From a virus: a stretch of DNA of 26,865 bases. Below are positions 11,137-21,426 of the stretch, piece after piece (the stretch's first letter is position 1; each line of letters begins with the position of its first letter). A program made the translations under genes and the position numbers. Under the pieces are notes generated by a model that did no database searches, was not told the DNA's origin, and saw only the letters and a program-made list of their open reading frames with translations. The DNA lies in the IMG/VR virus record IMGVR_UViG_3300047566_000068, positions 1-26,865 of that record; one strand, given 5' to 3'.

Positions 11137-11682
11137 TTACTCCCAAGATTTAACTTCACTTACTTGAATAGGCACTATACCTAACTCTCGTTTCTCTAGC
11201 TTTGTTAAGAAGTCTTCCATGTAAAGTGATAGTGGTTGTTCAACTTTCATGGTTTTCTTAATTACTTTTTTGTATTCACCTAATCGATATGCACTAATAC
11301 TACCTCTAGGTTTTTGTTCATCAGCCATTTTTATATTTTCATCTAAAGCTTCAAGAAACCACTGACTTGGATTAGTTTCAGACAGTTTTTTCATTGAGCA
11401 AGCTCGCTTGACGGCGTCATAAAACGGATGACCGTTTGGTATATCCCTCCACTTAATATCATAAGTGTCATACAAAAAGAAAGCATAGGGTGTCCCTGAC
11501 TTATCTTGACGGCGTAACCATCGAGCCAAGTGTGATGTCATAGATGTCCCTCTAGATATACACCCTGTGCGGATTTGTTTTACAATGTTTTTAATTTGTC
11601 TATCCGTAAACAAACTAAAGTCTACATCTAATGTGATTTGTTTAGCATAGATAGCTAACTCGTTTGGTATAATTACAGGCAT
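11137..11682 (-). CDS. Hypothetical protein (181 aa) in the MoxR/VWA module
   Basis: The protein has a basic central region (IRTGCISRGTSMTSHLARWL, RRQDKSGTPYAFFLYD) and a helical C-terminus with SISAYRLGEYKKVIKKTM. No known domain recognised. It starts 19 nt after dyad A, with AAGGAGAGAG before the ATG. It is probably co-transcribed with the VWA gene. Confidence 0.65.
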   Translation of the reverse strand: MPVIIPNELAIYAKQITLDVDFSLFTDRQIKNIVKQIRTGCISRGTSMTSHLARWLRRQDKSGTPYAFFLYDTYDIKWRDIPNGHPFYDAVKRACSMKKLSETNPSQWFLEALDENIKMADEQKPRGSISAYRLGEYKKVIKKTMKVEQPLSLYMEDFLTKLEKRELGIVPIQVSEVKSWE

Positions 11683-11701: not shown

Positions 11702-11735
11702 GTTCTGAATTGCACTATAAAGTGCAAAACGGAAC
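11702..11735 (-). promoter_or_regulatory. 34-bp dyad element A
   Basis: Outer arms GTTCTG (11702-11707) and CGGAAC (11730-11735), inner arms TTGCACT (11710-11716) and AGTGCAA (11721-11727). It lies between the VWA stop and the start of the gene at 11682, with no -10/-35 pair of its own. On the minus strand the 3' flank up to the ribosome site is almost identical to that of copy C. Confidence 0.8.
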
Positions 11736-11740
11736 GATTG

Positions 11741-12895
11741 TTAATCATCAATGTTAATTGTCTTACCATGTGGTGATGTGATATGTCTAGATGTAATAGC
11801 CCAAAGGGTTGGGTATTCCCAATTACCACCAAAGTCATCTTCAACATAACCATCGGTTAATATAATGATAGCTTCAGGTGCGATGCGTTTATCCTTGATA
11901 TACTGATTGACGCAACCGACATGAGTGCCACCTCCACCTGCAGGTTTTGTGGACTGAACCAACGCTTTGTAATCGCCTTGATTGTATGTCTCATGACCTG
12001 CGACTGCCGTATCCCAATACAACAACTCGATACTAGATGGGGATACATCATCACATATCGCTACAACTTCTGTTAGAAACTCATTGAGTTCCTTATCACC
12101 AATAGAACCTGATGTGTCAATACCAATCACGACTTGACCAATAGCTTCACCAATCATGCTAGGCATATAAATATCTTGTCCCAAGAAACGCTTGTGTGGT
12201 CGTTTCCATGAAGTTCTATCTTTGTTCTTACATGTGCTATTCACAAACTCACGCAACTGCTCACGCCAATTTACTTTAGGTTCAAGTATTTCTGTGACAG
12301 ACCTATTCTTATTACCTTGCATCTTGCCACGTATGATTTCACCTTGACGTAATGCTTGGTCTATCTGCTTGGCAGTTTCTTTAACTTCCTCATCAGATAA
12401 ACTTTCAGCACCTTCCCAATCATGTGTATCATGACCTGCTTGACCACCACCATTATCTTTGGCATCTTGCATAAGCTTGTCAAAGATTTGTTTGGTTGTC
12501 ATACCTTTATACTGCAAATCAAACAACGCACTATCGGGTCGTTGTGCTATCACACCATGTTCATCAGCTTCATGTATCGCATAGTTCACGACATAGTCAG
12601 CCGCCATGTTAGCCGCCATAGGATTTATCTTGAATAGCTTTTTCCATAGGTGCATATGTTGATAGACTTTGTGTAGTGCCTCATGCAACACGACAAAGTT
12701 TAGTTCTTTATCATCTAATGTTTTGATGAAGTCTGCGTTATACATGACATCACGACCATTGGTGCAAGCCGTTGGTATGTCATCTGTAAAGATAACCTTG
12801 CCCACCGACAACACGCCTGCAAACATACAAAACTCCTTGCTACGCATTATCGCTATGTGGGACTTTGTTATCCTTTGTTCACTTGTTAGTGCCAT
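11741..12895 (-). CDS. Metallopeptidase/VWA fusion protein (DUF2201-like)
   Basis: 384 aa. The N-terminal part has FVVLHEALHKVYQH, a HExxH zinc-peptidase motif at 71-75, with ADYVVNYAIHEAD following as the second helix. After a charged linker (about 145-205) comes a C-terminal VWA-like domain: VVIGIDTSGSIGD (MIDAS DxSGS, 260-264), GGGGTH (MIDAS Thr, about 320-325) and ILTDGY (347-349). This is the layout of DUF2201 proteins, which pair with MoxR AAA+ ATPases. It is separated from that ATPase gene only by a 52-aa gene. All metal-binding residues are present, so it is probably functional. AAGGAG precedes the ATG. Confidence 0.92.
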   Translation of the reverse strand: MALTSEQRITKSHIAIMRSKEFCMFAGVLSVGKVIFTDDIPTACTNGRDVMYNADFIKTLDDKELNFVVLHEALHKVYQHMHLWKKLFKINPMAANMAADYVVNYAIHEADEHGVIAQRPDSALFDLQYKGMTTKQIFDKLMQDAKDNGGGQAGHDTHDWEGAESLSDEEVKETAKQIDQALRQGEIIRGKMQGNKNRSVTEILEPKVNWREQLREFVNSTCKNKDRTSWKRPHKRFLGQDIYMPSMIGEAIGQVVIGIDTSGSIGDKELNEFLTEVVAICDDVSPSSIELLYWDTAVAGHETYNQGDYKALVQSTKPAGGGGTHVGCVNQYIKDKRIAPEAIIILTDGYVEDDFGGNWEYPTLWAITSRHITSPHGKTINIDD

Positions 12896-13037
12896 CTTTT
12901 ATCTCCTTGACATAATTGGTAGTATTGAATTGAGTTTTTAATATCTTCTGATTTTGGTCGTTCAATATATATTCTCTTGTGTCATCACCTACAATACCAA
13001 GATATGCATTTTTAAGTAACGCTTTTATATCTTGCAT
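12879..13037 (-). CDS. Small hypothetical protein between the ATPase and VWA genes (52 aa)
   Basis: The ATG at 13037 has a perfect GGAGG ribosome site that overlaps the ATPase stop codon. The reading frame (MQDIKALLKNAYLGIVGDDT to KDGTNK) ends in TGA at 12879 and overlaps the VWA start by 17 nt. The product is charged and soluble, with no known family. The tight fit between two interacting genes suggests it belongs to the same complex. Confidence 0.65.
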   Translation of the reverse strand: MQDIKALLKNAYLGIVGDDTREYILNDQNQKILKTQFNTTNYVKEIKDGTNK

Positions 13038-13045
13038 ATATCCTC

Positions 13046-14092
13046 CTAGAAGTATTGGTTGTTCTTAACTGCCCAATCAACAAACGATTTGTTCTGAGCC
13101 GCAACTGCCTTGCGTGATGATGCCATGATATTGACTGCAAACAAAGCTTGTATCTCCATAGGTAAGCGTTGTAGATAAACTAACCACGCATCCATATGTT
13201 CCTCTGTGATTGCCATGAGTTCTCGCATTACCAAGATGACACGAGCCGCAGGGTCGTTAGGCACATTAGCTTTCAATGGTTCTTTGTAGATACTTTCTTT
13301 GGTTGGTAGTGCATCGGCTAAACTGAAGTATGCAGACATATCACGAGCCGCAGACTCACCAAGTGTGCCACTCAACGCAACCATAGTCGTATCCTCACCG
13401 AGTGTTTGTCTATTCTTAACAATGAATGACGCTTTCTCTAACGAACGAGGGGAAACAAACGCCTCTTGTTGTTTGCGTGGATTGTATATATACATGTTTT
13501 CTTTCTGTGCTTCATCTGTATAACACGCTAGTGCATGGGGGAATTGTTTAACCCAAGCAACGACTTCAGGTGCTACTTGATTATCAATAGCCCAATTTAT
13601 CCATTCATCATCGTTAGGGTTGCGAACGATGACCGAAGTTAATCTGTTCTTGGCATGGGCTTTCATGCTATCGCCAACACCATCTGTTGTAAGATTACCT
13701 GTTGAATACACAATAGAGTCGGGGTGAAACTTAACTGCACCTAGTCTACGTTCTAACATGACAGGCAATAACATATTCTTGACAGGCTCACTAGCTTTCG
13801 TAATCTCGTCAAGCATGATGATGACAGGTTTGTTATCATGAATAGCAAAGCGTTCATTCGGATAGAATGTGGTAGTCTTTGTGTCATGGTTCATGGCAGG
13901 CATGGCAAGGTCGCCCAAGTCCAAGTCTGCACAATCAATATACACAGGTGTGTGGTCAGGAAATCGTTTAGATAATGATTTCAAGATTGATGACTTACCA
14001 ATGCCAGGTTGACCTTTTAGGTGAACCGTAACATCACGACCTATTGTTGCAATTAAATCTTCTGCTTGTTTCAAACTAATTTCTTGTTGCAT
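13046..14092 (-). CDS. MoxR-type AAA+ ATPase
   Basis: 348 aa. Walker A GQPGIGKS (27-34), Walker B VIIMLDE (90-96), sensor 1 STGN (130-133) and KNRLTS with R150 as the likely arginine finger. The order and the MLDEITKA motif fit the MoxR/CbbQ/GvpN branch, whose members remodel proteins together with a VWA partner. The C-terminal ~150 residues form the helical lid and an extra domain. It lies downstream of dyad B and is followed at once by the 52-aa gene and the VWA gene, giving a complete MoxR-VWA pair. Confidence 0.93.
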   Translation of the reverse strand: MQQEISLKQAEDLIATIGRDVTVHLKGQPGIGKSSILKSLSKRFPDHTPVYIDCADLDLGDLAMPAMNHDTKTTTFYPNERFAIHDNKPVIIMLDEITKASEPVKNMLLPVMLERRLGAVKFHPDSIVYSTGNLTTDGVGDSMKAHAKNRLTSVIVRNPNDDEWINWAIDNQVAPEVVAWVKQFPHALACYTDEAQKENMYIYNPRKQQEAFVSPRSLEKASFIVKNRQTLGEDTTMVALSGTLGESAARDMSAYFSLADALPTKESIYKEPLKANVPNDPAARVILVMRELMAITEEHMDAWLVYLQRLPMEIQALFAVNIMASSRKAVAAQNKSFVDWAVKNNQYF

Positions 14093-14112
14093 GATACTCT
14101 CTCCTATAAAAT

Positions 14113-14146
14113 GTTCTGATTAGCACTATAAAGTGCAAAACGGAAC
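14113..14146 (-). promoter_or_regulatory. 34-bp dyad element B
   Basis: GTTCTG (14113-14118), TAGCACT (14121-14127), AGTGCAA (14132-14138), CGGAAC (14141-14146), with one change in the left inner arm. It lies 20 nt before the AAA+ ATPase start and 3 nt after the stop of the gene upstream, inside the operon. Confidence 0.8.
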
Positions 14147-14149
14147 GGG

Positions 14150-14998
14150 TTAATTTACTTCTAATAAAACTTGTGGGTTTTCTAACTTAATTATCTTATC
14201 TAACCAACGTTTAATTATACCTATGTTGCAATAATAAACTTCTTTATGGTTAGGATAATTACCTACCCATTTTGTATGCTGACATTGTCTTAACGCATGG
14301 TAATATGCAAGATATGTTTTATCTTCATTAGCACATAATTGCGATACGCCTTCTGTGCCACGACTAGTATATTCATGCACTTGTTCACTTAACTTCTCAT
14401 CGTTAAACATACCTTCACCATTACTCAACTTCAACATGGTATCAGCATATTTAAGAAATGTTTTATACGGCTTACGCAACTCACGCATCTGACTTGCATC
14501 AAACTTATACTTAACTGCTTTCTCAAATTGTTCGGGATACAATGCTTTATTGTCATAACTTATGGCATACCAATCACGAGCATTCATAAAGTATCTTTCA
14601 TTACCTACCCATACTTCACATTCAATCTGATGATTTTTAACCATAGGACTTCTAGTAAAGGGTGAAGGCACATAGTATTTATGTTCAAACCCTCGTAGAC
14701 TATGCCCACTTATATACCAAACAAAATACTCTGTGCTCAATGATGGATAACCACCTAGCGTTATCTCTTTGTGTGTTGGATAGAACCTTACTAAATCCGT
14801 GTCGTAATATCCTGCAACATACACTTCAATACCATCAAGCATATCTTTGCGTATCCATTTCTCTTTCTCATATCTATCGCCCAATCTACGAACTGATTGG
14901 CTCTCACCACGCACAACTTTTCTACTATCAAACTCTTCTTTTGCCCTGTCATATGTTTCAATGCGAGGCATGTTATATACATTGATATGGAAACCCAT
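14150..14998 (-). CDS. Hypothetical protein (282 aa)
   Basis: N-terminus MGFHINVYNMPRIETYDRAK, then an aromatic-rich middle (SLSTEYFVWYISGHSLRGFE, VWVGNERYFMNARDWYAISY) and a C-terminal helical region with KWVGNYPNHKEVYYCNIG. No known domain recognised. It is in the same operon as the DUF6915-like gene and the ATPase, separated from the former by one base. Its aromatic, beta-rich look would suit a carbohydrate- or peptide-binding fold, but this is weak. Confidence 0.65.
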   Translation of the reverse strand: MGFHINVYNMPRIETYDRAKEEFDSRKVVRGESQSVRRLGDRYEKEKWIRKDMLDGIEVYVAGYYDTDLVRFYPTHKEITLGGYPSLSTEYFVWYISGHSLRGFEHKYYVPSPFTRSPMVKNHQIECEVWVGNERYFMNARDWYAISYDNKALYPEQFEKAVKYKFDASQMRELRKPYKTFLKYADTMLKLSNGEGMFNDEKLSEQVHEYTSRGTEGVSQLCANEDKTYLAYYHALRQCQHTKWVGNYPNHKEVYYCNIGIIKRWLDKIIKLENPQVLLEVN

Positions 14999-14999
14999 T

Positions 15000-15341
15000 T
15001 TATTCTCCCTCCTTCATGTCATAACCTCTATTCATCCAACTTACGAACTTCATGTTTTCAAGCCAATCTTGTATGGTCGGTATCCAACCACCACAATCTT
15101 CTTTTACATGTTGTTCACCAATCAGTCTTGTTGGGACTTCACGACCATCACTATTCACAATGAATAACCCAAATTGTCTTTCACATTCAAAGATACCTTG
15201 TGCATGATGTCTGATGGCTCTGTGTCTTGCGTCTGCAAAGCATTCTTTCGTTGCGTCAAACCAATCATGTATTGGTTGATAGTCTGACTCAACACCTCCC
15301 CACTTCTTTACAGATGTTTTAGAATGAAAATGTGTATTCAT
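15000..15341 (-). CDS. DUF6915-like protein
   Basis: 113 aa with conserved His and Trp residues: HFHSKTSVKKWGGVESDYQP, IHDWFDATKECFADARHRAI, RHHAQGIFECERQFG, then RLIGEQHVKEDCGGWIPT and DWLENM. This layout matches what I recall of DUF6915, a family of unknown function seen in phages and plasmids. Many conserved His, Asp and Glu side chains suggest a metal site. It overlaps the DUF6878-like gene by one base (TAATG). Confidence 0.7.
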   Translation of the reverse strand: MNTHFHSKTSVKKWGGVESDYQPIHDWFDATKECFADARHRAIRHHAQGIFECERQFGLFIVNSDGREVPTRLIGEQHVKEDCGGWIPTIQDWLENMKFVSWMNRGYDMKEGE

Positions 15342-15766
15342 TATTCGTTCTCCTCATCTAAATCAAACTCATGGTCTTCCGTTATCATCTCGTTGATACC
15401 AACATGAAGTATTGTTTTAGGTGGGTTTACTTTAAAATCAATTATCAATCTACCTTGACCACCTTCGTTGTTATACCAATCTAACCCTGTGCCATCTAAT
15501 GCCCGATAACATAAGTCTTCAATGACATCTTGAAGTAATGTGCGTTCTGTTGTAGGTTCTTGACTACCATATGTTTGCTTTGTCCATGCAATCATATCGT
15601 TGGGTATATCTTGTGGCTCATTGTTTTTGTCTAGGTAATACACGCTATCAATCTGACCACTATCGCCTGCACCACTAAACTCAACAACGACTTCATTTGC
15701 ACCGAGCAGATTTAACTGCGTGTAAAGAACTTCTTGTTCTTGTTTATTGATTTCATTCTTTGACAT
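15341..15766 (-). CDS. DUF6878-like protein
   Basis: 141 aa: VVVEFSGAGDSGQIDSVYYL, then IEDLCYRALDGTGLDWYNNE and GGQGRLIIDF, ending in an acidic tail. The FSGAGDSGQI and DWYNNEGGQGR blocks fit DUF6878, of unknown function. It is the first gene after the strong promoter at 15858-15887 and dyad C, with GAGGAG before the ATG, so it leads the operon that continues into the ATPase and VWA genes. Confidence 0.75.
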   Translation of the reverse strand: MSKNEINKQEQEVLYTQLNLLGANEVVVEFSGAGDSGQIDSVYYLDKNNEPQDIPNDMIAWTKQTYGSQEPTTERTLLQDVIEDLCYRALDGTGLDWYNNEGGQGRLIIDFKVNPPKTILHVGINEMITEDHEFDLDEENE

Positions 15767-15785
15767 ACTATACTCCTCAAGTTAT

Positions 15786-15819
15786 GTTCTGAATTGCACG
15801 ATAGAGTGCAAAACGGAAC
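15786..15819 (-). promoter_or_regulatory. 34-bp dyad element C
   Basis: GTTCTG (15786-15791), TTGCACG (15794-15800), AGTGCAA (15805-15811), CGGAAC (15814-15819). It lies between the promoter at 15858-15887 and the ATG at 15766, hence inside the transcribed leader. The leader block from the dyad to the ribosome site is nearly the same as at copy A. Confidence 0.82.
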
Positions 15820-15857
15820 GGGTTTATAAACATACTTCTACTACCAATTCAAATAAC

Positions 15858-15887
15858 ATTATACACTATAAACTTGACATTGTCAAG
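15858..15887 (-). promoter_or_regulatory. Consensus sigma-70 promoter with perfect palindromic operator
   Basis: Minus strand TTGACA (15886-15881), 17-nt spacer, TATAAT (15863-15858): a perfect consensus. The 15-bp palindrome CTTGACATTGTCAAG (15873-15887) covers the -35 box and the first part of the spacer, so a bound dimer would block RNA polymerase. Transcription would start near 15851 and give a leader of about 85 nt with dyad C. Confidence 0.88.
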
Positions 15888-15906
15888 TAAACACCGAAAA
15901 AAATTT

Positions 15907-16104
15907 TTACTTACTTTTATGTGATGAATTTAAACCTTTTAATAATTCATAGTCAGTTATCACAATATAATTTGATTTGGGCATAGGCACAATCGTATGT
16001 TTGTATGACCGAGCCTCTTCCTCGCCACACAATAAACAAGTGTGATACCCTAACTCGTAACGTTTTGTTTCTACTTCATCACCACATCTTATACATACTT
16101 TCAT
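15907..16104 (-). CDS. Small zinc-ribbon protein (65 aa)
   Basis: KVCIRCGDEVETKRYELGY followed by HTCLLCGEEEA gives two CxxC pairs (C4, C7, C23, C26), a classic zinc ribbon. A conserved-looking tail, TIVPMPKSNYIVI and LLKGLN, follows. Short zinc ribbons of this kind are frequent in phage early regions, often of unknown role. It overlaps the gene upstream by ATGA. The stop lies about 20 nt before the next promoter. Confidence 0.75.
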   Translation of the reverse strand: MKVCIRCGDEVETKRYELGYHTCLLCGEEEARSYKHTIVPMPKSNYIVITDYELLKGLNSSHKSK

Positions 16105-16277
16105 TTGATATACTCCTTCATGTTGTTATTCCATGTTTTAACTAACGCATAACGTCTTGCCTCTAACTCTGTGCGTGGTGTAGCAAAGTGATAATAATTC
16201 CCTGTAAAGAATTTGTTCTCTCTAATCTTGTCCCAATTTGCGTTGTGTGCAAATAGGTCTTTCTGTTTTTGCGTCAT
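16101..16277 (-). CDS. Hypothetical protein (58 aa)
   Basis: Start at ATG 16277, with AGGAG 8 nt upstream. The product begins MTQKQKDLFAHNANWDKIRE and has an aromatic NYYHFATPRTELEARRYALV. No family recognised. Its first 56 nt overlap the 3' end of the previous gene in another frame, which is long for this genome but supported by the ribosome site. Confidence 0.6.
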   Translation of the reverse strand: MTQKQKDLFAHNANWDKIRENKFFTGNYYHFATPRTELEARRYALVKTWNNNMKEYIK

Positions 16278-16446
16278 TTGCAAATCTCCTTTTAAGTTTA
16301 AAGTATCCCTGTTGTTCTAGGTATTTCAATCTATGCCAATTCAATATTAACTTATCATACATATCCTTCTGTGTTGCATGAGGATTATCTTGTAGCATTT
16401 TGTTAACTTTGTTGGCATGGCGCCTATCATCTAGCTTGGTATACAT
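16222..16446 (-). CDS. Small helical, possibly winged-helix protein (74 aa)
   Basis: Residues 1-50 (RRHANKVNKMLQDNPHATQK, DMYDKLILNWHRLKYLEQQG) look like a small DNA-binding helical domain with an HTH-like 'ATQKDMYDKL...LKYLEQQGY' layout. The C-terminus is basic. It begins at a TAATG junction with a 38-aa membrane gene. The last 56 nt overlap the next gene, so the C-terminal 18 residues may be non-essential. Confidence 0.55.
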   Translation of the reverse strand: MYTKLDDRRHANKVNKMLQDNPHATQKDMYDKLILNWHRLKYLEQQGYFKLKRRFANDAKTERPICTQRKLGQD

Positions 16447-16562
16447 TACTTCTGTTGCTCTACCTTTGTGGTATCTTGTGGTGCTTTGTTATCAAAGATA
16501 GGTGTATATACACCTAACCATATGGCTACATATATAATAGTTAAAACTCCGATTGCACTCAT
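16446..16562 (-). CDS. Single-span mini membrane protein (38 aa)
   Basis: Below usual ORF limits but well placed: the ATG at 16562 overlaps the upstream stop (ATGA) with AGGAG 10 nt before it, and the TAA overlaps the next ATG. The product is one membrane helix (AIGVLTIIYVAIWLGVYTP) and a polar tail ending KVEQQK. Its topology resembles small phage holin or antiholin-type proteins. The function is unknown. Confidence 0.6.
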   Translation of the reverse strand: MSAIGVLTIIYVAIWLGVYTPIFDNKAPQDTTKVEQQK

Positions 16563-16747
16563 AATAAACATTCTCCTACTAAATTAAATGCCTGTGTAAA
16601 GACATCTGTTGTGGTTTCTTTAATTACTTCTAACTTAACTACATTCTTGCCTTGCTCTTTGTGCCACTTCGCCTCTTTCGGTGTCCATCTATATTGACGC
16701 AACACTTCGCCGTCATCATCTACAACTGCATAAGTAAAAGGTATCAT
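16559..16747 (-). CDS. Hypothetical protein (62 aa)
   Basis: A short protein, IPFTYAVVDDDGEVLRQYRW then TPKEAKWHKEQGKNVVKLEV, resembling a small beta-hairpin plus helix. No family recognised. It overlaps both neighbours by 4 nt (ATGA), which supports it as a translated gene. Confidence 0.6.
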   Translation of the reverse strand: MIPFTYAVVDDDGEVLRQYRWTPKEAKWHKEQGKNVVKLEVIKETTTDVFTQAFNLVGECLL

Positions 16748-16992
16748 AGTCCACCATACGCATCAGCAAGACGCTTGGCATTATACTTCTGCCTATCCTT
16801 ACTAAATGTTTTCATAAACTCTTTAAAGTCTTTCTCGGTTGAATAATGTTGTAGCAACACAAGATACGCTTGGTTGATAGCATCGTATTCGGGTTCATCG
16901 GGAAACTGCAAATTGATTTTAAAGCCATCTTTCAATTCTTCTACCATTATCTTTTCACGAGTTTCGTCTGTCATTTCAATCATTACTTGCAT
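16744..16992 (-). CDS. Hypothetical protein (82 aa)
   Basis: An acidic, helical protein (EMTDETREKIMVEELKDGFK, EYDAINQAYLVLLQHYSTEK). I chose the ATG at 16992 because AGGAG sits 9 nt upstream; an ATG 9 nt further in is also possible. It overlaps the endolysin stop by 17 nt. No family recognised. Opposite-strand ORFs here are shadows. Confidence 0.6.
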   Translation of the reverse strand: MQVMIEMTDETREKIMVEELKDGFKINLQFPDEPEYDAINQAYLVLLQHYSTEKDFKEFMKTFSKDRQKYNAKRLADAYGGL

Positions 16993-17365
16993 ATTGCATC
17001 TCTCCTTTTTGTTTATAGAAAATTAAATTACTCCATCTTACCACAGGTTGCAACTTATACCATGATTTAGGTTTCTTAATACTCGTATCATGAAAGTTAG
17101 TCGCACCATAACTATAATCAACCTCTAACCTATGTAATACCTTGTATGCTATATCCACATACTCCTGTCGTATTACCGAAGGTGGTTTTATATACCCATA
17201 CCAACTGAATTGATATGGTCGTTTCATTTCACTACACACATTCTTATGATTAAATTCGGCTCGCCTCATCAATACATATCCTACTGCTATCTGTGCCTGT
17301 CGTGGCTCGGTAGCTGACTCCATGTATATGGTCGTGGCAAGACAAAGTAAAGCTTGGTCAATCAT
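16976..17365 (-). CDS. SleB-type cell wall hydrolase (endolysin)
   Basis: 129 aa. CLATTIYMESATEPRQAQ (catalytic Glu16) and IAVGYVLMRRAEF, then VCSEMKRPYQFSWYG and GATNFHDTS, ending in a YKQKGEMQ tail, match the Cell Wall Hydrolase / SleB family (Hydrolase_2). These cleave the glycan strand of peptidoglycan as lytic transglycosylases or amidases. There is no signal peptide, so export needs a holin. Several tiny membrane proteins nearby are candidates. It is unusual that the lysis enzyme is on the minus-strand early side. A strong GGAGG site precedes the ATG, after a short leader ORF with a hairpin. Confidence 0.85.
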   Translation of the reverse strand: MIDQALLCLATTIYMESATEPRQAQIAVGYVLMRRAEFNHKNVCSEMKRPYQFSWYGYIKPPSVIRQEYVDIAYKVLHRLEVDYSYGATNFHDTSIKKPKSWYKLQPVVRWSNLIFYKQKGEMQYASND

Positions 17366-17403
17366 ACTGACCTCCTTTATATTTGTTTAAACGAGTTTAG
17401 TTT

Positions 17404-17460
17404 ATAACCGAAAGGTTATTAGAATGTGAGAAAGCCCACGATTGATGCGAATGATTTCAT
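17404..17460 (-). promoter_or_regulatory. Leader ORF (13 codons) and hairpin before the endolysin
   Basis: An ATG at 17460 with AAGGAG 6 nt upstream opens MKSFASIVGFLTF and stops with TAA at 17419. The hairpin ATAACC/GGTTAT (17404-17409 with 17414-17419, 4-nt loop) starts at that stop codon. About 38 nt later the endolysin ATG follows its own ribosome site. The arrangement suggests a translated leader that controls the endolysin, or a very small hydrophobic peptide. Confidence 0.4.
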
Positions 17461-17477
17461 ATAGTTCTCCTTTATAA

Positions 17478-17723
17478 TTAGTCCTCACAACTGCCATTGA
17501 TACAGGCATTGTTGTTTAAGATTTCATCTTCAAGCGATGCGAGAGCATCTTGTTTCTCAATGTCTAGTGCTTTGGCATTGAGTTCTGCATACATATCTTT
17601 AGTATACGGCTCATACCTTACCACTAATCCTGCATCATGACAAGCATTTATATAGTCATCAAATAAAAACCTTGACACACTATCCGAGTTAATACTTAAA
17701 ACGATTGTGATTTTATTGCTCAT
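17478..17723 (-). CDS. Hypothetical protein (81 aa)
   Basis: N-terminal beta-helix pattern (NKITIVLSINSDSVSRFLFD, YINACHDAGLVVRYEPYTKD) followed by an acidic helix and a cysteine tail, NNNACINGSCED. No family recognised. It overlaps the last of the three tandem paralogs by 11 nt. Confidence 0.6.
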   Translation of the reverse strand: MSNKITIVLSINSDSVSRFLFDDYINACHDAGLVVRYEPYTKDMYAELNAKALDIEKQDALASLEDEILNNNACINGSCED

Positions 17724-17994
17724 GCTTTTCTCCTTTGTTAAACTTATCTAGCCACCTTCTTCCTCTAACTGATATCTCATACTTGTAATCTATGTCATCT
17801 GCAAACTTTAATAGTTTCATTCTATGCAAGTAATCATGGAAAGCCCATGACATTTTCTTGTCGTTGCGTTCAACAATTAAGTTTGCAAACTCCTCACCCC
17901 AATCCATAGTTAATAGCATGGATACAAGAAAGCTTTTAATCATTTCATTAGATACTTCACTTTCAGATATAACAGGTCTGTTAAAATTGCCCAT
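17713..17994 (-). CDS. Tandem winged-helix-like paralog 3
   Basis: 93 aa from ATG 17994. The C-terminal KYEISVRGRRWLDKF matches the same place in the two upstream genes, and its helical core (FHDYLHRMKLLKFADD) aligns with LHYRRMIKYG. The h-x-[IV]-x-x-x-G-R-x-W-L-D ending resembles the wing and last helix of small winged-helix regulators. It overlaps paralog 2 by 14 nt. The WLD is followed by 10 extra charged residues here. Confidence 0.6.
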   Translation of the reverse strand: MGNFNRPVISESEVSNEMIKSFLVSMLLTMDWGEEFANLIVERNDKKMSWAFHDYLHRMKLLKFADDIDYKYEISVRGRRWLDKFNKGEKHEQ

Positions 17995-18226
17995 CAAGCC
18001 ACTCCCTTCCGTTTGGTGCTAGGTCTATATGCCACACAAGCCCATTTACTTTGGATACTGATACTAGGTGTTTATCTAACGCATAGTTAAAGTAGTTATG
18101 CTCACCATCATCTTGGTTATCAACATCAAATTGGTTAGTCAGCATCCACTTCATCATATACTTTTTCATAGGGCTTTCAAATATGATGACATCATGCCAC
18201 CTACCTACTTCTTTATTTATGCTCAT
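17981..18226 (-). CDS. Tandem winged-helix-like paralog 2
   Basis: 81 aa from ATG 18226. The C-terminus WHIDLAPNGREWLDGQF has the shared GRxWLD motif. The core is more diverged: MKKYMMKWMLTNQFDVDN and NYFNYALDKHLVSVSK. Its ATG lies inside the TGGCTTGATG of paralog 1's WLD codons, and its own WLD codons hold the ATG of paralog 3 in the same way. Confidence 0.6.
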   Translation of the reverse strand: MSINKEVGRWHDVIIFESPMKKYMMKWMLTNQFDVDNQDDGEHNYFNYALDKHLVSVSKVNGLVWHIDLAPNGREWLDGQF

Positions 18227-18452
18227 CAAGCCACTTCCTTCCTCGTTCAGTTATAACAAAGTTCGGAAACACTTTGTTGCCATTAACACCATACTTAATC
18301 ATGCGTCTATAATGTAATACTCCTGCAAGTGTTGTATGCTGTTGATATTTAGGGTTCCACTCATAGTTTTCATACTCGTCTACCCAATTAGGACACATCA
18401 TTATCTCAAGCAATAACGCTCTTATTTTGTTAACTTCGTGGTCGTCTAACAT
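18213..18452 (-). CDS. Tandem winged-helix-like paralog 1
   Basis: 79 aa from ATG 18452, chosen for the GGAG 5 nt upstream; an ATG at 18479 lies inside dyad D and lacks a site. The protein has EVNKIRALLLEIMMCPNWVD, AGVLHYRRMIKYG and a C-terminal NFVITERGRKWLDEHK. The final motif is the clearest winged-helix-like 'h-x-I-T-x-x-G-R-x-W-L' of the three. It lies just downstream of dyad D. Confidence 0.62.
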   Translation of the reverse strand: MLDDHEVNKIRALLLEIMMCPNWVDEYENYEWNPKYQQHTTLAGVLHYRRMIKYGVNGNKVFPNFVITERGRKWLDEHK

Positions 18453-18741
18453 AATATCTCCGTTCCGTTTCGCACTCATCAGTGCATTTCAGACATTGGA
18501 TACACGCTTTGTCTATGAGTAAATCTTCATAGTGCCTTTCGGTGTAGAGAATATATCTAAACTTATCTAACTCCATGCGTGCATAGTCAATGAGTCTGCG
18601 TTCAACTTCCCAAGGTTTAGTAGATGTGATTTGATTATACAAAGCAAGCCACTCACTATCGTCAAAGTTATCTAGTATATCAGACACACGATAGTTTTTG
18701 GTTTGAGTTCTTACAACTTCTTTAACTTGGTCTATGTTCAT
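18430..18741 (-). CDS. Hypothetical protein with C-terminal four-cysteine motif (103 aa)
   Basis: Start at ATG 18741 because it forms an ATGA overlap with the 54-aa membrane gene. The protein is helical (NIDQVKEVVRTQTKNYRVSD, WEVERRLIDYARMELDKFRY) and ends in ACIQCLKCTDECETERR. C-x2-C-x2-C-x3-C is the spacing of a 4Fe-4S ferredoxin site but could equally hold zinc. Part of the motif is encoded by dyad D, so the cysteines may partly be a by-product of that element. It overlaps paralog 1 by 23 nt. Confidence 0.62.
   Translation of the reverse strand: MNIDQVKEVVRTQTKNYRVSDILDNFDDSEWLALYNQITSTKPWEVERRLIDYARMELDKFRYILYTERHYEDLLIDKACIQCLKCTDECETERRYYVRRPRS
18462..18495 (-). promoter_or_regulatory. 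34-bp dyad element D (within coding sequence)
   Basis: GTTCCG (18462-18467), TCGCACT (18470-18476), AGTGCAT (18481-18487), CAGACA (18490-18495). Same spacing as the other copies but a degraded right outer arm. It lies 9 nt before the start of paralog 1 and inside the end of the gene at 18430. Confidence 0.65.
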
Positions 18742-18902
18742 CGTAGCACCATGACTAACAATAAGAATATGTTGATACCCAATGACACCACCATGCAATT
18801 TCTTATACTTCGGTAGTGGTCTTTGTGAATTGTGGTATATTCAGACAAGTATATTTCCCTGTCATACTCACGCCATGATTTAAAGATTGGTTTTGTTTTC
18901 AT
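18738..18902 (-). CDS. Small membrane protein (54 aa)
   Basis: ATG at 18902 with GGAG 8 nt upstream. The soluble N-terminus (KTKPIFKSWREYDREIYLSE, HKDHYRSIRN) is followed by a C-terminal membrane helix (MVVSLGINIFLLLVMVLR), so it would be a tail-anchored or N-in protein. It ends in an ATGA overlap with the gene at 18741 and overlaps the gene before by 23 nt. Function unknown. Confidence 0.62.
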   Translation of the reverse strand: MKTKPIFKSWREYDREIYLSEYTTIHKDHYRSIRNCMVVSLGINIFLLLVMVLR

Positions 18903-19065
18903 TTTTTATCTCCGTTTCTACAAGTTCAATTTTGTCAATTTGTTTTCTTAAGTCATCAACTGATAACTCAAATAGTTTTCTTGCTCGTCTGATTTGATTA
19001 CGCATAATTACTTCTCTGCATATAAATCCACAAGCAAACCAAATGCCATAAATTATCCAATCCAT
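18880..19065 (-). CDS. Membrane-anchored coiled-coil protein (61 aa)
   Basis: One N-terminal membrane helix (DWIIYGIWFACGFICREVIM), then a basic and coiled-coil helix (RRARKLFELSVDDLRKQIDK). The layout is that of an i-spanin-like or small anchored phage protein, with no clear o-spanin partner nearby. It starts at a TAATG junction with the 32-aa protein upstream. Confidence 0.6.
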   Translation of the reverse strand: MDWIIYGIWFACGFICREVIMRNQIRRARKLFELSVDDLRKQIDKIELVETEIKNENKTNL

Positions 19066-19163
19066 TATCTATTCTCCTTATCAAAATAAACTATCAAGCA
19101 CCATACTATTAAAGTAATACCACAACCACCCAAAATATACATATCATAAATACTAAACATCAT
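19065..19163 (-). CDS. Mini membrane protein (32 aa)
   Basis: ATG at 19163 with GGAGAG before it and TAATG overlap with the next gene at 19065. The product is one membrane helix (YILGGCGITLIVWCLIVYFD). It is among several tiny membrane proteins on the way to the endolysin. Function unknown. Confidence 0.55.
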   Translation of the reverse strand: MMFSIYDMYILGGCGITLIVWCLIVYFDKENR

Positions 19164-19170
19164 TCTCTCC

Positions 19171-19293
19171 TTAATAATATTGTTCAAAAATTCTGTGCGG
19201 ATTGTTCTCACACATTTTCATAGCTGTTTCTTTATTGAGGTATTCAAATACCTCTTTGGTTTTAAAATCTACTACAAAATAGTTCTGTGTCAT
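19171..19293 (-). CDS. Small hypothetical protein (40 aa)
   Basis: ATG at 19293 with GGAG 7 nt upstream, directly behind dyad E. MTQNYFVVDFKTKEVFEYLN and KETAMKMCENNPHRIFEQYY suggest a two-strand, one-helix mini-domain of the kind that shows a hairpin 'YFVVDFKTKEVFEYL'. No family recognised. It fills the gap between the gene at 19318 and the mini membrane protein. Confidence 0.6.
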   Translation of the reverse strand: MTQNYFVVDFKTKEVFEYLNKETAMKMCENNPHRIFEQYY

Positions 19294-19304
19294 TTTTTTC
19301 TCCT

Positions 19305-19338
19305 ATTCTGTTTTGCACTAAATAGTGCAAATCGGTTT
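19305..19338 (-). promoter_or_regulatory. 34-bp dyad element E
   Basis: ATTCTG (19305-19310), TTGCACT (19313-19319), AGTGCAA (19324-19330), CGGTTT (19333-19338). Inner arms are perfect, outer arms partly lost. It spans the stop codon of the gene at 19318-19656 and abuts the ribosome site of the 40-aa gene. Confidence 0.7.
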
Positions 19339-19656
19339 TTCAAAAGTTAAGCAATTATTATAACTCCATAACTGATGTATTGCTCTAAACATCAGAAACG
19401 CATCGGGTTGATGTTCCCATGTGGGATTGTCAATACCTACCTTTTCGCCCAAGTCAACGTCATCATCATCAAAATAGGCACACTCAAACAGATATATGAC
19501 CTCATCAATAAACGCTTGAGATATATCAGTATGTTTTTCAAATAGGGCTTTCATTACCTTATCTCTTGCACGACTGCCAAACGGATACTTGTCCCATTCA
19601 TCTCTATATGAATTGACAATGTCGTTTGCTTTACTTAACCATAAATCAGACATCAT
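19318..19656 (-). CDS. Hypothetical protein (112 aa)
   Basis: An acidic protein with DLWLSKANDIVNSYRDEWDK, an SQAFIDEVIYLFECAYFDDD helix and an acidic loop DDDDVDLGEK. The last residues, KPICTI, are encoded by dyad E. Two ATGs lie together at 19656 and 19653; the second has better spacing to GAGGAG. It is the first gene of the long operon after the promoter at 19745-19774. No family recognised. Confidence 0.62.
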   Translation of the reverse strand: MMSDLWLSKANDIVNSYRDEWDKYPFGSRARDKVMKALFEKHTDISQAFIDEVIYLFECAYFDDDDVDLGEKVGIDNPTWEHQPDAFLMFRAIHQLWSYNNCLTFEKPICTI

Positions 19657-19672
19657 ATACTCCTCAAGTTAA

Positions 19673-19706
19673 GTTCGGAAATGCACTAAAAAGTGCAAAA
19701 CAGAAC
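19673..19706 (-). promoter_or_regulatory. 34-bp dyad element F
   Basis: GTTCGG (19673-19678), ATGCACT (19681-19687), AGTGCAA (19692-19698), CAGAAC (19701-19706). It is in the leader between the promoter at 19745-19774 and the ATG at 19656. The 3' flank on the minus strand (TTAACTTGAGGAG) matches that of copies A and C. Confidence 0.8.
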
Positions 19707-19744
19707 AGGTTAATAATGACTACTATTACTGACGCAACACAACC

Positions 19745-19774
19745 ATTATACCTTATATTCTTTACAATGTCAAG
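19745..19774 (-). promoter_or_regulatory. Consensus sigma-70 promoter with imperfect palindromic operator
   Basis: Minus strand TTGACA (19773-19768), 17-nt spacer, TATAAT (19750-19745), a perfect consensus. The operator here is TTTACAATGTCAAG, with one change from the palindrome in one half. It starts the operon running from 19656 down to at least the zinc-ribbon gene at 15907. Confidence 0.85.
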
Positions 19775-19860
19775 CAAACACAGACCACCAAATAGACCAC
19801 AAAGTTGACATTGTCTGTCATAAAAGTGTCATATAACAACACGTATAAATACGTTGATAG

Positions 19861-20430
19861 GTGTTTGATTTTTAGGAATTGGGTAAGGTAGTAGACATTG
19901 TTAACTTTGTGGTAGTATTGTCAAGTGGCTTGTTATAATATCAAGTGCTTGATTTATAAGGGTTTTTTATCGGTTGACATTGTATATTATAACACGCTAA
20001 GTCCTTGATTTTAAAGCAAAATAACATGACTCGTGAATTGACATTGTCTACTATAACAACGTAAGTCATTGATTTTTCAGTAATAATACATTATAACACG
20101 AAAAACGGCTCTGCGTGGTCTGGAGGAAAAGGCAGTAAAAAATCAAAAAACGATAGCCACAAAGTTTACAAAGTCAACTTAAAAAATTTTCTGACGAGGT
20201 AATTTCTGATTTTACGTGTTATAATGTATTTTTATATTAAGTAATTGATTTATATAGATATTTTATTTTTACACCTGCAAAACTTGACAATCGTAAGTCA
20301 TTGATTTTTCAGTAATATAACACTACCCTGACAATGTCAAGTTTGTAAGTCATTGATTTTTCAGTAATATAACAGGGCTTGTTATAATACACCCCATGCG
20401 TGTTATAATATACAATGTCAAGTGTTGACA
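19861..20430. repeat. Noncoding repeat region, candidate replication origin or control region
   Basis: The stretch 19775-20551 has no plausible gene. It holds three nearly exact copies of a 24-bp repeat with core AAGTCATTGATTTTTCAG (20061-20084, 20293-20316, 20345-20368) and diverged copies around 19944, 19997 and 20240. TTGATT cores lie at about 19949, 20005, 20069, 20246, 20301 and 20353, mostly 52-64 bp apart. Between them are copies of TTGACATTGT or its complement and of TTATAA runs. Iteron-like repeats in an AT-rich, gene-free stretch resemble phage origins or multi-operator control regions. No replication initiator gene adjoins it. Confidence 0.6.
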
Positions 20431-20551
20431 ATAAATCACACAGAAAGATGTAGCTACGAAGTTAAATTAGTTTTTCCTCGCCCACCCACCCACACACTTA
20501 TGACCGAACCACCCGAACCGAACTCGGAACGGGGTTAACAAAATTCAGACG

Positions 20552-20588
20552 AAAAAAAAAGGGCTCGTGGAATTAACCACGAACCCTT
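20552..20588 (-). terminator. Strong rho-independent terminator
   Basis: On the minus strand a 12-bp stem (20588-20577 with 20570-20559, one G-U pair, 6-nt loop) is followed by nine T. It lies 26 nt after the stop of the 227-aa coiled-coil gene. Confidence 0.92.
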
Positions 20589-20613
20589 AACCCTTATAAC
20601 TACGTTAACTTAG

Positions 20614-21297
20614 TTAACTTAATACTTTCTGAACTACTGCACGAACTTCTTTGTTAAGTCTTAACGCTATCAATTCACTTCTACCCTCTTGCGTTTTGAG
20701 TAGTCCGTTGAACCAATCTGTATATTGGGACTTGAAGTCCTTTAACTCTTGGCTTTCTTTGGCTTTCTCATCTTTTTCTAACTCTTGAGCTTTCTTAAAC
20801 ACTACGCTTGAAACCTCTTTGAATTTTTGTTTGCTTTCTTTGTCAGTTTTATCTGATAAGTTAACTAACTCTGATTTAAGATTTTCAATGCTAACGTGTT
20901 CATACTTCTTTTCTATTTCAGCTTGTTCAGCTTTCTTAGCTTGTTCATGCTTTGCAGTTTTGCTAGTGCCTTTGGGCTTTGTAATGCCGTCAGCTTTAAG
21001 AATAGCAACCACTTCTTTAGAGTAGTTAGAAGCCGTTGAGGGTAAAATTTCTTTGGTATTCACAAGTCTGTTTTCAAAGTCCGCAAATATCAATTCCCAG
21101 CGTTGCTTAGTGCAATCACTACCAATCAATGACTTGGTAGCTTTCGCAACCTTGAACACTAATTCACTACGTTTAAGCCCTGCATGATGAGCTTGGCTCA
21201 TTACATCTACCATTTCAACATCAATAAACTTCTTGTCTTGAACTGATAACACTTCTACTTGCTTTGCTGTTGCTGTTGCTGTTGTTTTCTTTGACAT
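20614..21297 (-). CDS. Charged coiled-coil protein (227 aa)
   Basis: Begins MSKKTTATATAKQVEVLSVQ, then an N-terminal globular region (residues about 20-110, with CTKQRWELIFADFENRL and SNYSKEVVAILKADGI), a Lys/Ala/Glu linker (TAKHEQAKKAEQAEIEKKYE) and a long C-terminal helical region. No family recognised. It is the only gene of a unit with its own consensus promoter, dyad G and strong terminator, so it is probably made in high amount early. A DNA- or RNA-binding regulator or scaffold would fit, and it is a possible binder of the dyad or palindrome. That is speculation. Confidence 0.75.
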   Translation of the reverse strand: MSKKTTATATAKQVEVLSVQDKKFIDVEMVDVMSQAHHAGLKRSELVFKVAKATKSLIGSDCTKQRWELIFADFENRLVNTKEILPSTASNYSKEVVAILKADGITKPKGTSKTAKHEQAKKAEQAEIEKKYEHVSIENLKSELVNLSDKTDKESKQKFKEVSSVVFKKAQELEKDEKAKESQELKDFKSQYTDWFNGLLKTQEGRSELIALRLNKEVRAVVQKVLS

Positions 21298-21329
21298 ATT
21301 AAACCTCTTTAAGTTAAGTTATAAAATTC

Positions 21330-21363
21330 GTTCTGCTTTGCACGATTGAGTGCAATTCAGAAC
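21330..21363 (-). promoter_or_regulatory. 34-bp dyad element G
   Basis: GTTCTG (21330-21335), TTGCACG (21338-21344), AGTGCAA (21349-21355), CAGAAC (21358-21363). Outer arms pair perfectly. It lies 32 nt before the ATG at 21297, in the leader made from the promoter at 21398-21426. Confidence 0.82.
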
Positions 21364-21397
21364 ACTTATGAACTGAGTTAACTCAATTCATACGAGC

Positions 21398-21426
21398 ATT
21401 ATAGCATAACTAATTGACAATGTCAA
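21398..21426 (-). promoter_or_regulatory. Consensus sigma-70 promoter with perfect palindromic operator
   Basis: Minus strand TTGACA (21426-21421), 17-nt spacer, TATAAT (21403-21398). The palindrome TTGACAATGTCAA (21414-21426) covers the -35. It drives the 227-aa coiled-coil gene through a leader of about 95 nt. Confidence 0.88.

Follow-up and report, generated by a model that had tools for sequence, protein, structure and literature searches.

A viral DNA stretch of 26,865 nucleotides (IMG/VR record IMGVR_UViG_3300047566_000068, positions 1 to 26,865; the window hereafter means this whole stretch) carries seven 34-bp inverted repeats, or dyads, each shortly before the start codon of a minus-strand gene. 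Comparison with related phages suggests that these dyads are probably dispersed operators of a phage-encoded, sequence-specific DNA-binding regulator, most likely the self-controlling product of the first early gene (227 amino acids (aa), 20614-21297; here the head gene, encoding the head protein). The sites, their placement, their uniformity within each genome, their replacement in place between genomes and their co-variation with the head gene were all established by computation. The window encodes a terminase, a family A DNA polymerase, a helicase and a MoxR-type ATPase, a gene content that identifies it as part of a tailed phage.

Dyad families in the window and its relatives

The seven dyads reported in a first-pass annotation of the window were confirmed by direct reading, all preceding minus-strand genes (Table 1), and the annotated gap of 9-32 nt between dyad and start codon was correct for all seven. 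Five were matched by the full pattern with at most three mismatches, compared with none in 100 dinucleotide shuffles; the copy at 19305 came from a repeat finder, and that at 18462 was present among the inverted repeats and in direct reading. Dyad length and centre are invariant in all seven. The common outer arms described in the annotation hold for five copies and are degenerate at 18462 (5' arm TGTCTG) and 19305 (AAACCG). At outer position 13 from the centre, read in the mRNA sense, the seven copies give C·A four times, T·C once, T·G once and a normal pair once. On this evidence the arms are read here as half-sites and not as a paired stem. As had been noted, three copies lie behind a TTGACA-17-TATAAT promoter and the other four do not. 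A terminator reading, already disfavoured in the annotation, is rejected because no T-run follows the window copies, and a promoter reading is likewise ruled out because promoters sit upstream of the dyads or are absent. N4-type hairpin promoters were also rejected, three copies being located in the leaders of ordinary sigma-70-type promoters.

Relatives were taken from a protein search with the MoxR-type ATPase, which yielded 61 loci (62-100% identity, labelled G or L). Window-type dyads are present in only a few of these loci. According to inspection by eye, most of 54 printed orthologous MoxR leaders contain a dyad of the same geometry but other sequence, while such a dyad was not seen in the leaders of L040 and L042-L045. 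Among 26 leaders hand-picked from the 54, 25 reach eight of nine core pairs; the L028 dyad lies off the centre chosen. Within any one genome the same dyad recurs ahead of several early genes, with the centre sequence varying among copies. In a set of 118 distinct sites from the group, symmetry is kept at positions 3-7 and 12-15 from the centre but is poor in the spacer at 8-10, so that the strict 2-nt spacer of the annotation does not extend to the group. In this set and in the set of 127 sites used below, orthologous sites of related genomes are included, with identical sites dropped and near-identical ones kept; sites scoring below 30 were left out, and G004:6356 and G002:2742, among those kept, are probably chance matches.

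A sequence-blind finder was applied to 48 of the 61 contigs, the other 13 being under 8 kb. A family of at least three dyads was returned in 38 of the 48 versus one of 144 shuffles, which kept base composition only; in G007 one shuffle (4) outscored the real family (3). Nine of the ten contigs missed by the finder are under 14 kb. G026, L043 and L044 have no dyad at MoxR yet contain six or seven elsewhere. Counted by eye across genomes, the distinct half-site pairs comprise at least 15 types.

The dyad has been exchanged in place while its surroundings stay. The hand-picked MoxR leaders were compared in 195 pairs with MoxR coding starts at least 85% identical, with arms less than 65% identical taken as a different type. 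Arms were at least 80% identical in 36 pairs (mean 99%). In 130 pairs they were below 65%, with a mean of 36%, close to the level of unrelated sequence when the better of two orientations is taken, compared with 87% for the coding start, 79% for the ribosome site and 79% for the upstream flank; the remaining 29 pairs, with arms 65-80% identical, were left out. Replacement of the arms with retention of the coding start, ribosome site and flank is what indicates the swap in place.

The extent of a complete site set can be estimated from G001, a 66-kb IMG/VR contig that encodes the same proteins at 100% identity and contains both window ends, in an order that crosses the G001 junction; the window is thus part of a 66-kb tailed-phage genome. 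Its ends have approximately 200 bases in common, although these did not agree letter for letter in a script test and the contig is classed as linear; on the strength of the common ends the genome looks complete. All seven G001 sites lie in some 10 kb of the early region, the structural half having none, and, if the genome is complete, they represent its full set. The dyad family of G020 is likewise confined to the early region, with none in the structural half.

Outside IMG/VR, no relatives were found in GenBank at the DNA level. Identities to the terminase were at most 52% among the best 20 of 2624 matches, and those to MoxR at most 27% among the best 20 of 323, with all 2624 and all 323 below 60%; two queries with the head protein returned no GenBank matches. 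A start-linked dyad family was absent from the first 50,000 bases of each of four phages among the nearest by terminase. HTVC027P and HTVC023P yielded groups of 3 and 6 that were A/T-rich and partly overlapping and look like an effect of composition.

Co-variation of dyad type with the head gene

Direct reading placed a head gene of 189-244 aa at the same position in 17 genomes, and sequence searches detected the head protein in 10 of 40 records. It is 77-79% identical in G016 and G019, the two other genomes with the window dyad type. By tblastn it is 28-45% identical in three other genomes and undetected in the rest of 29, with MoxR at 67-95%; in the 15 aligned genomes, identity to the window protein falls to 15%.

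In the main co-variation test, each of the 17 genomes was represented by its largest dyad family, and similarity was taken over nine half-site positions. All seven pairs with head identity of at least 60% have a dyad similarity of at least 0.90, while the other 129 pairs (head identity at most 43%) have a dyad similarity of at most 0.70. The partial rank correlation with the dyad was 0.40 for the head given MoxR and 0.00 for MoxR given the head, and one of 2000 label permutations reached the observed head-dyad value. Furthermore, in seven pairs with MoxR 95-99% identical and different heads, dyad similarity was only 0.22-0.45. The G034 family was misregistered in this test, and two of its three sites overlap. 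An earlier test was weaker (partial correlations of 0.32 for the head with MoxR held constant and 0.14 for MoxR with the head held constant); it used dyads seeded from MoxR leaders over 34 columns and gave G021 the type of its recombinant leader.

The association held in additional loci. Eleven of eleven further head genes (69-97% identical to a reference) carry the predicted dyad type near the head gene, scoring 15-17 of 18 half-site positions with the next best type at 13 or fewer; in type 5 the coding sequence itself dictates part of this agreement. Open reading frames (ORFs) present in all same-type and at least five other-type genomes were also compared (18 for G001, 28 for G012 and 24 for G018). 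The head gene alone separated the types, by more than 15 points of identity, in all three types tested. Since the changes in the sites track the head protein, it is probably the regulator that binds the dyads. The first-pass annotation had listed this protein as a gel-shift candidate, and it is the one found here to co-vary with the sites. Its other candidate, a helix-turn-helix protein (393-635), does not track dyad type; it is conserved at 57-77% identity in each of the 16 other genomes in which it was detected, irrespective of dyad type, and was rejected as the cognate factor.

In G021 the MoxR-leader dyad is of type 2 and the head protein is unlike that of type 2. This mismatch led to a new dyad type beside the G021 head gene, TGTGAATA, with CTCACG-like inner arms and five members by the finder. 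G015 contains one site (15257) identical to a G014 site plus five of its own type. Both genomes are best read as recent recombinants that retain one or two foreign sites. The single dyads of foreign type in otherwise uniform genomes are those at 15257 in G015 and at 14720 and 10947 in G021.

Structural models give the head protein a consistent layout. Two AlphaFold models of head proteins with 23% mutual identity (predicted local distance difference test 82 and 78; predicted template modelling score 0.44 and 0.48, respectively) both contain a bundle of four helices, a linker in which a proline is invariant, a pair of shorter helices, a longer helix (45-49 residues) and helices at the C terminus. 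The best VIA rows were the KaiA C-terminal domain and the AppA SCHIC domain (Z 7.0-7.7 over 78-81 residues, root-mean-square deviation 2.8-5.8), which for models of helical bundles falls under a meaningful level; model parts outside the bundle were barely covered by the fold searches. A tyrosine-recombinase fold gave no full match with the two models, the Foldseek hit to the 2key phage-integrase domain (E 3.4, probability 0.11) being meaningless, and a Pfam search found no helix-turn-helix family. Weak single-member matches were obtained in Pfam (UVR, 0.0025, and others), PHROGs (0.0038 and others) and PADLOC (Cas2a, 2e-5, and three more), together with matches at E 0.13-0.15 to chains listed as 'DNA-binding protein', which we take to be HU proteins. 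A profile match to 4eqq (31 residues, E 0.00099) disappeared with a larger alignment and was taken as chance. Because a family or trustworthy fold match is absent, it is the co-variation that suggests DNA binding by the head protein.

Site placement and proposed mode of control

Sites are strongly associated with gene starts. Directly before a start codon lie 107 of the 127 sites, versus 1498 of 7800 random positions (19%; the control took in 26 of 28 genomes). Random placement in relatives, which the annotation had named as grounds for abandoning a functional role, was thus looked for and not seen. Fifty-five sites have a nearby promoter-like pair. In 34 of them the -35 element lies 79-87 bp ahead of the dyad centre, and in nine it lies 92-96 bp ahead; in the rest it lies 70-112 bp upstream (11) or downstream (1). 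The two main spacing classes would set the dyad centre approximately 45 or 58 bp past the start of transcription.

The association with starts also raises the possibility of a leader-RNA element, in which a phage RNA-binding protein would read a hairpin before the ribosome site and control translation gene by gene. The narrow distance at which the 107 sites precede their starts, a mild preference for forward orientation and the four window copies without their own consensus promoter are consistent with this explanation, which we nevertheless hold unlikely. Selection on an mRNA hairpin should leave G·U pairs more frequent than A·C pairs; the counts at the nine core positions in the mRNA sense (18 G·U and 27 A·C, beside 954 Watson-Crick pairs and 63 of other kinds) argue against such a hairpin. 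The C·A mismatch in the outer arm of four window copies and the variable centre sequence also speak against it, as does the location of a number of sites. The dyad at G030:10574 immediately precedes the -10 and the expected -35 of the head-gene promoter, those at G035:5993 and L043:4283 lie upstream of that promoter, those at G035:6882 and G020:64047 follow a terminator, and in type 5 the head dyad is found about 100 nt inside the head coding sequence. Positions before promoters, after terminators and inside coding sequence are ill suited to a leader-RNA element. An RNA hairpin was therefore set aside as the principal explanation on the pair test and the site places. Recognition by a protein, proposed in the annotation as acting on DNA or in the leader RNA, is retained, with pairing, site places and co-variation favouring DNA over leader RNA. 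In G030 (11405), G031 (6041) and L043 (5104), representing three types, a dyad directly follows the head gene and precedes a terminator-like hairpin.

RNase III-like processing, the other proposal in the annotation, or RNA-stabilising leader hairpins as in T7 early mRNA would fit the location of the dyads in leaders and between operon genes. Recognition of structure only would leave both the uniformity within genomes and the replacement between genomes unexplained, and with G·U pairs not preferred this explanation is highly improbable.

As operators, each dyad would consist of two inverted bipartite half-sites, with an inner block 3-7 bp and an outer block 12-15 bp from the centre. A comparison aimed at modular recognition of the two blocks yielded no clear rule. 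The regulator, most likely the head-gene product, would be made early from a strong sigma-70 promoter and would bind its own gene together with a set of early and replication genes; since the head gene has its own operator, self-regulation is predicted. We infer that control is exerted on DNA and is negative. Transcription would most likely be lowered by a block to polymerase just past promoters, where the dyad centre lies about 45 bp after the start, and between operon genes the bound regulator would act as a roadblock; activation instead of lowering is also conceivable. Related phages would have swapped regulator and sites together, resulting in mutually different specificities. A more far-reaching interpretation, possible but doubtful, is that these phages, which lack signs of lysogeny, carry a heteroimmunity-like system, in which members of a new all-helical DNA-binding family repress their own gene and further early genes from operators scattered close to gene starts, with competition between co-infecting relatives giving rise to at least 15 specificities.

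Genes indicative of lysogeny were not detected: a tyrosine integrase was found in none of 13 records and a large serine recombinase in none of 12, most of the records being fragments. ParA (PF01656) was found in none of 12 records, again mostly fragments, while PF01656 was detected in 14 of 14 control genomes. A pattern-based scan found no bacterial genome contigs with this MoxR gene. With most records being fragments, these results are weak evidence for a lytic life; HTVC027P, a distant relative by terminase, is described as obligately lytic in the portion of the source available. The ParA result also bears on dispersed parS-like partition or genome-organising sites. One co-evolving protein that binds a large number of scattered dyads would be in keeping with a ParB-like pattern, but with no ParA-type ATPase in the records searched, and with sites tied to gene starts and restricted to the early region in G001 and G020, such a role has very little probability.

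Several points weigh against reading the dyads as operators of the head protein. Among the 17 genomes, just three dyad types are represented more than once (a fourth with further loci), and conservation of the head protein helps to conserve the type 5 head dyad, which lies within its coding sequence. Most sites keep within a narrow range of distances to the start codon (mode 37 nt, measured from the centre), a constraint that an operator as such would not require; this distance may only reflect the free gap between stop codon and ribosome site. Copies agree in the forward orientation more than in reverse (136 versus 85 pairs, 27 ties). Profile and fold searches recognised no DNA-binding fold or family for the head protein, which is slightly acidic (isoelectric point 5.4-5.6) in G010, G012, G013 and G034. 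A classical lysogeny repressor is not indicated, since integrase, serine recombinase, ParA and bacterial contigs with the MoxR gene were not found in the searches above. In addition, a gene of 174-181 aa separates types 2 and 5 by gaps of 22 and 48 points (head gene 20 and 49), although not type 1.

The last of these points, together with several small ORFs confined to one dyad type and the lack of a recognised fold in the head protein, leaves room for operators with another cognate gene, which could be the 174-181-aa gene, a companion of the head gene or one lying beyond the compared contigs. The head gene is therefore the best candidate and not the only one possible. Its presence at the same place in 17 of 17 genomes, its separation of the types and the failure of the helix-turn-helix protein to track type make another cognate gene unlikely, if by no means negligible. 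The 181-aa gene, 34% identical in same-type G016 versus 80% in other-type G009, was rejected as the cognate factor for not separating type 1; this gene, behind dyad A, is unusually variable. The 112-aa gene was also rejected, being confined to type 1, and by eye the second-dyad slot holds similar-looking proteins across types.

Related systems and features of the window

The first-pass annotation stated that no described element resembles these dyads. Searches of open-licence literature turned up no account of the element in these phages, but the statement is too strong, as the ESAS of cluster K and the inverted repeats of cluster EG are start-associated phage dyads according to the sections of those papers available. 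Cluster K ESAS are described there as inverted repeats just upstream of the translation starts of non-structural genes, with a consensus per genome that differs between subclusters, K1 from K2/K3 at three positions; the authors took mismatches as an argument that the repeats are DNA-binding sites whose specificity differs by subcluster, were puzzled by the association with translation starts, and gave the factor as unknown (PMC3203893, PMC11373665, PMC12699233). The present dyads share with ESAS, as described in those sections, their position directly before non-structural gene starts (107 of 127 sites; none in the structural half of G001 and G020). They differ in that both half-sites are replaced rather than three positions; that the promoter, where found, is mostly 70-112 bp upstream of the centre, while the Adephagia ESAS contains a putative promoter; and that the head protein co-varies, a co-varying protein not being mentioned in the ESAS text available. 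ESAS repeats are further described with a variable-length spacer and a linked 13-bp SAS partner over the ribosome site. Here a TAAC...AGGAG-like stretch follows many sites, and no fixed 13-bp element was apparent in the 26 leaders, where no systematic search was made.

In cluster EG Microbacterium phages, the available text reports 8-10 inverted repeats of 18 bp in short intergenic gaps, typically 14-22 bp before starts (PMC7302621). These resemble the present dyads, as far as that text goes, in being start-proximal and in the lack of an identified repressor or integrase; they differ in being shorter, of one sequence in all three phages and, in that text, without a candidate protein (PMC7302621). 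Cluster A stoperators are reported, in the parts of the paper at hand, to be dispersed sites of one regulator, some at promoters and most not, whose consensus diverges together with the repressor and which include a site at the repressor's own gene (PMC6550527). The present dyads agree with that account in being numerous and scattered, uniform in sequence within a genome and for the most part not at promoters. In cluster A the sites silence a prophage, and bound repressor blocks transcription elongation. Cluster A sites are 13-bp, asymmetric and oriented, whereas the present dyads are of approximately 30-34 bp, and they serve a helix-turn-helix repressor in temperate phages, whereas no helix-turn-helix family was found in the co-varying protein here (PMC6550527, same parts).

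The SPBRE of SPbeta is presented, in the accessible passages, as a repeated intergenic element bound by one phage master repressor, MrpR, of unexpected fold (PMC10516654). It differs from the present dyads in its 15-bp motif, in the tyrosine-recombinase fold of MrpR, not recognised here, and in belonging to a prophage (PMC10516654). Cluster O mycobacteriophages contain, by the available account, more than 30 dispersed 17-bp dyads per genome, of unknown function and denser towards the right end; these are not closely linked to starts, about a third lie in coding regions, and the same sequence was mapped in all five phages (PMC4351075).

The present case is new in how far the sites have been replaced, in how many types of them exist, in the tie between the sites and a single protein, and in the phage group itself. 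Reports of start-associated dyads go back to 2011 and cover several phage groups; in the text available, neither the binding factor nor the reason for the placement was known (PMC3203893, PMC11373665, PMC7302621). Both questions become testable here, given at least 15 types of site in similar genetic settings, a pair of apparent recombinants and a single candidate protein. If the head protein does bind the dyads, it would represent a new DNA-binding family with bipartite half-sites, and operator and regulator would be diversifying together in lytic-looking phages.

Table 1. Dyads, promoters and associated genes in the window.
Feature	Coordinates	Strand	Remarks
Dyad A	11702..11735	-	19 nt before 181-aa gene (11137-11682); no consensus promoter directly upstream
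Dyad B	14113..14146	-	Before MoxR-type ATPase gene (13046-14092); intra-operon; orthologous leaders compared
Dyad C	15786..15819	-	Before DUF6878 gene (15341-15766); behind promoter
Dyad D	18462..18495	-	Degenerate outer arm; in 3' part of ORF 18430-18798; 9 nt before ATG at 18452
Dyad E	19305..19338	-	Degenerate outer arm; at end of 112-aa gene; before 40-aa ORF starting at 19293
Dyad F	19673..19706	-	Before 112-aa gene (19318-19656); behind promoter
Dyad G	21330..21363	-	Leader of 227-aa head gene; behind promoter
Head-gene sigma-70-type promoter	21398..21426	-	TTGACA-17-TATAAT
Sigma-70-type promoter before dyad F	19745..19773	-	TTGACA-17-TATAAT
Sigma-70-type promoter before dyad C	15858..15886	-	TTGACA-17-TATAAT
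Head gene, 227 aa	20614..21297	-	Putative DNA-binding regulator of the dyads, probably controlling itself; diverges rapidly; not convincingly matched to a known family
MoxR-type ATPase	13046..14092	-	Conserved target gene; query for relatives (61 loci, 62-100% identity)
181-aa gene	11137..11682	-	Target behind dyad A; variable between phages
DUF6878 protein	15341..15766	-	Target behind promoter and dyad C

The MoxR neighbour at 11741-12895 carries the PHROG name 'HNH endonuclease'; from its place beside MoxR, we presume its product to be a VWA-type partner. Between the head promoter and its dyad (21364-21397) lies a second small hairpin or dyad, ATGAATTGA...TCAATTCAT, which is also present in the head leaders of G020, G021, L131, L132 and L142 and, by eye, is similar across dyad types and thus not type-specific. 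The stretch at 19720-20600 contains repeated TTGACATTGT...TATAACA units and copies of GTAAGTCATTGATTTTTCAGTAATA and looks like a promoter array, with similar sequence in relatives such as G011 and G020. The -35 region of the promoters at 21398-21426 and 15858-15886 is itself a small dyad, TTGACAATGTCAA or TTGACATTGTCAA, that is found in the leaders of relatives as well.

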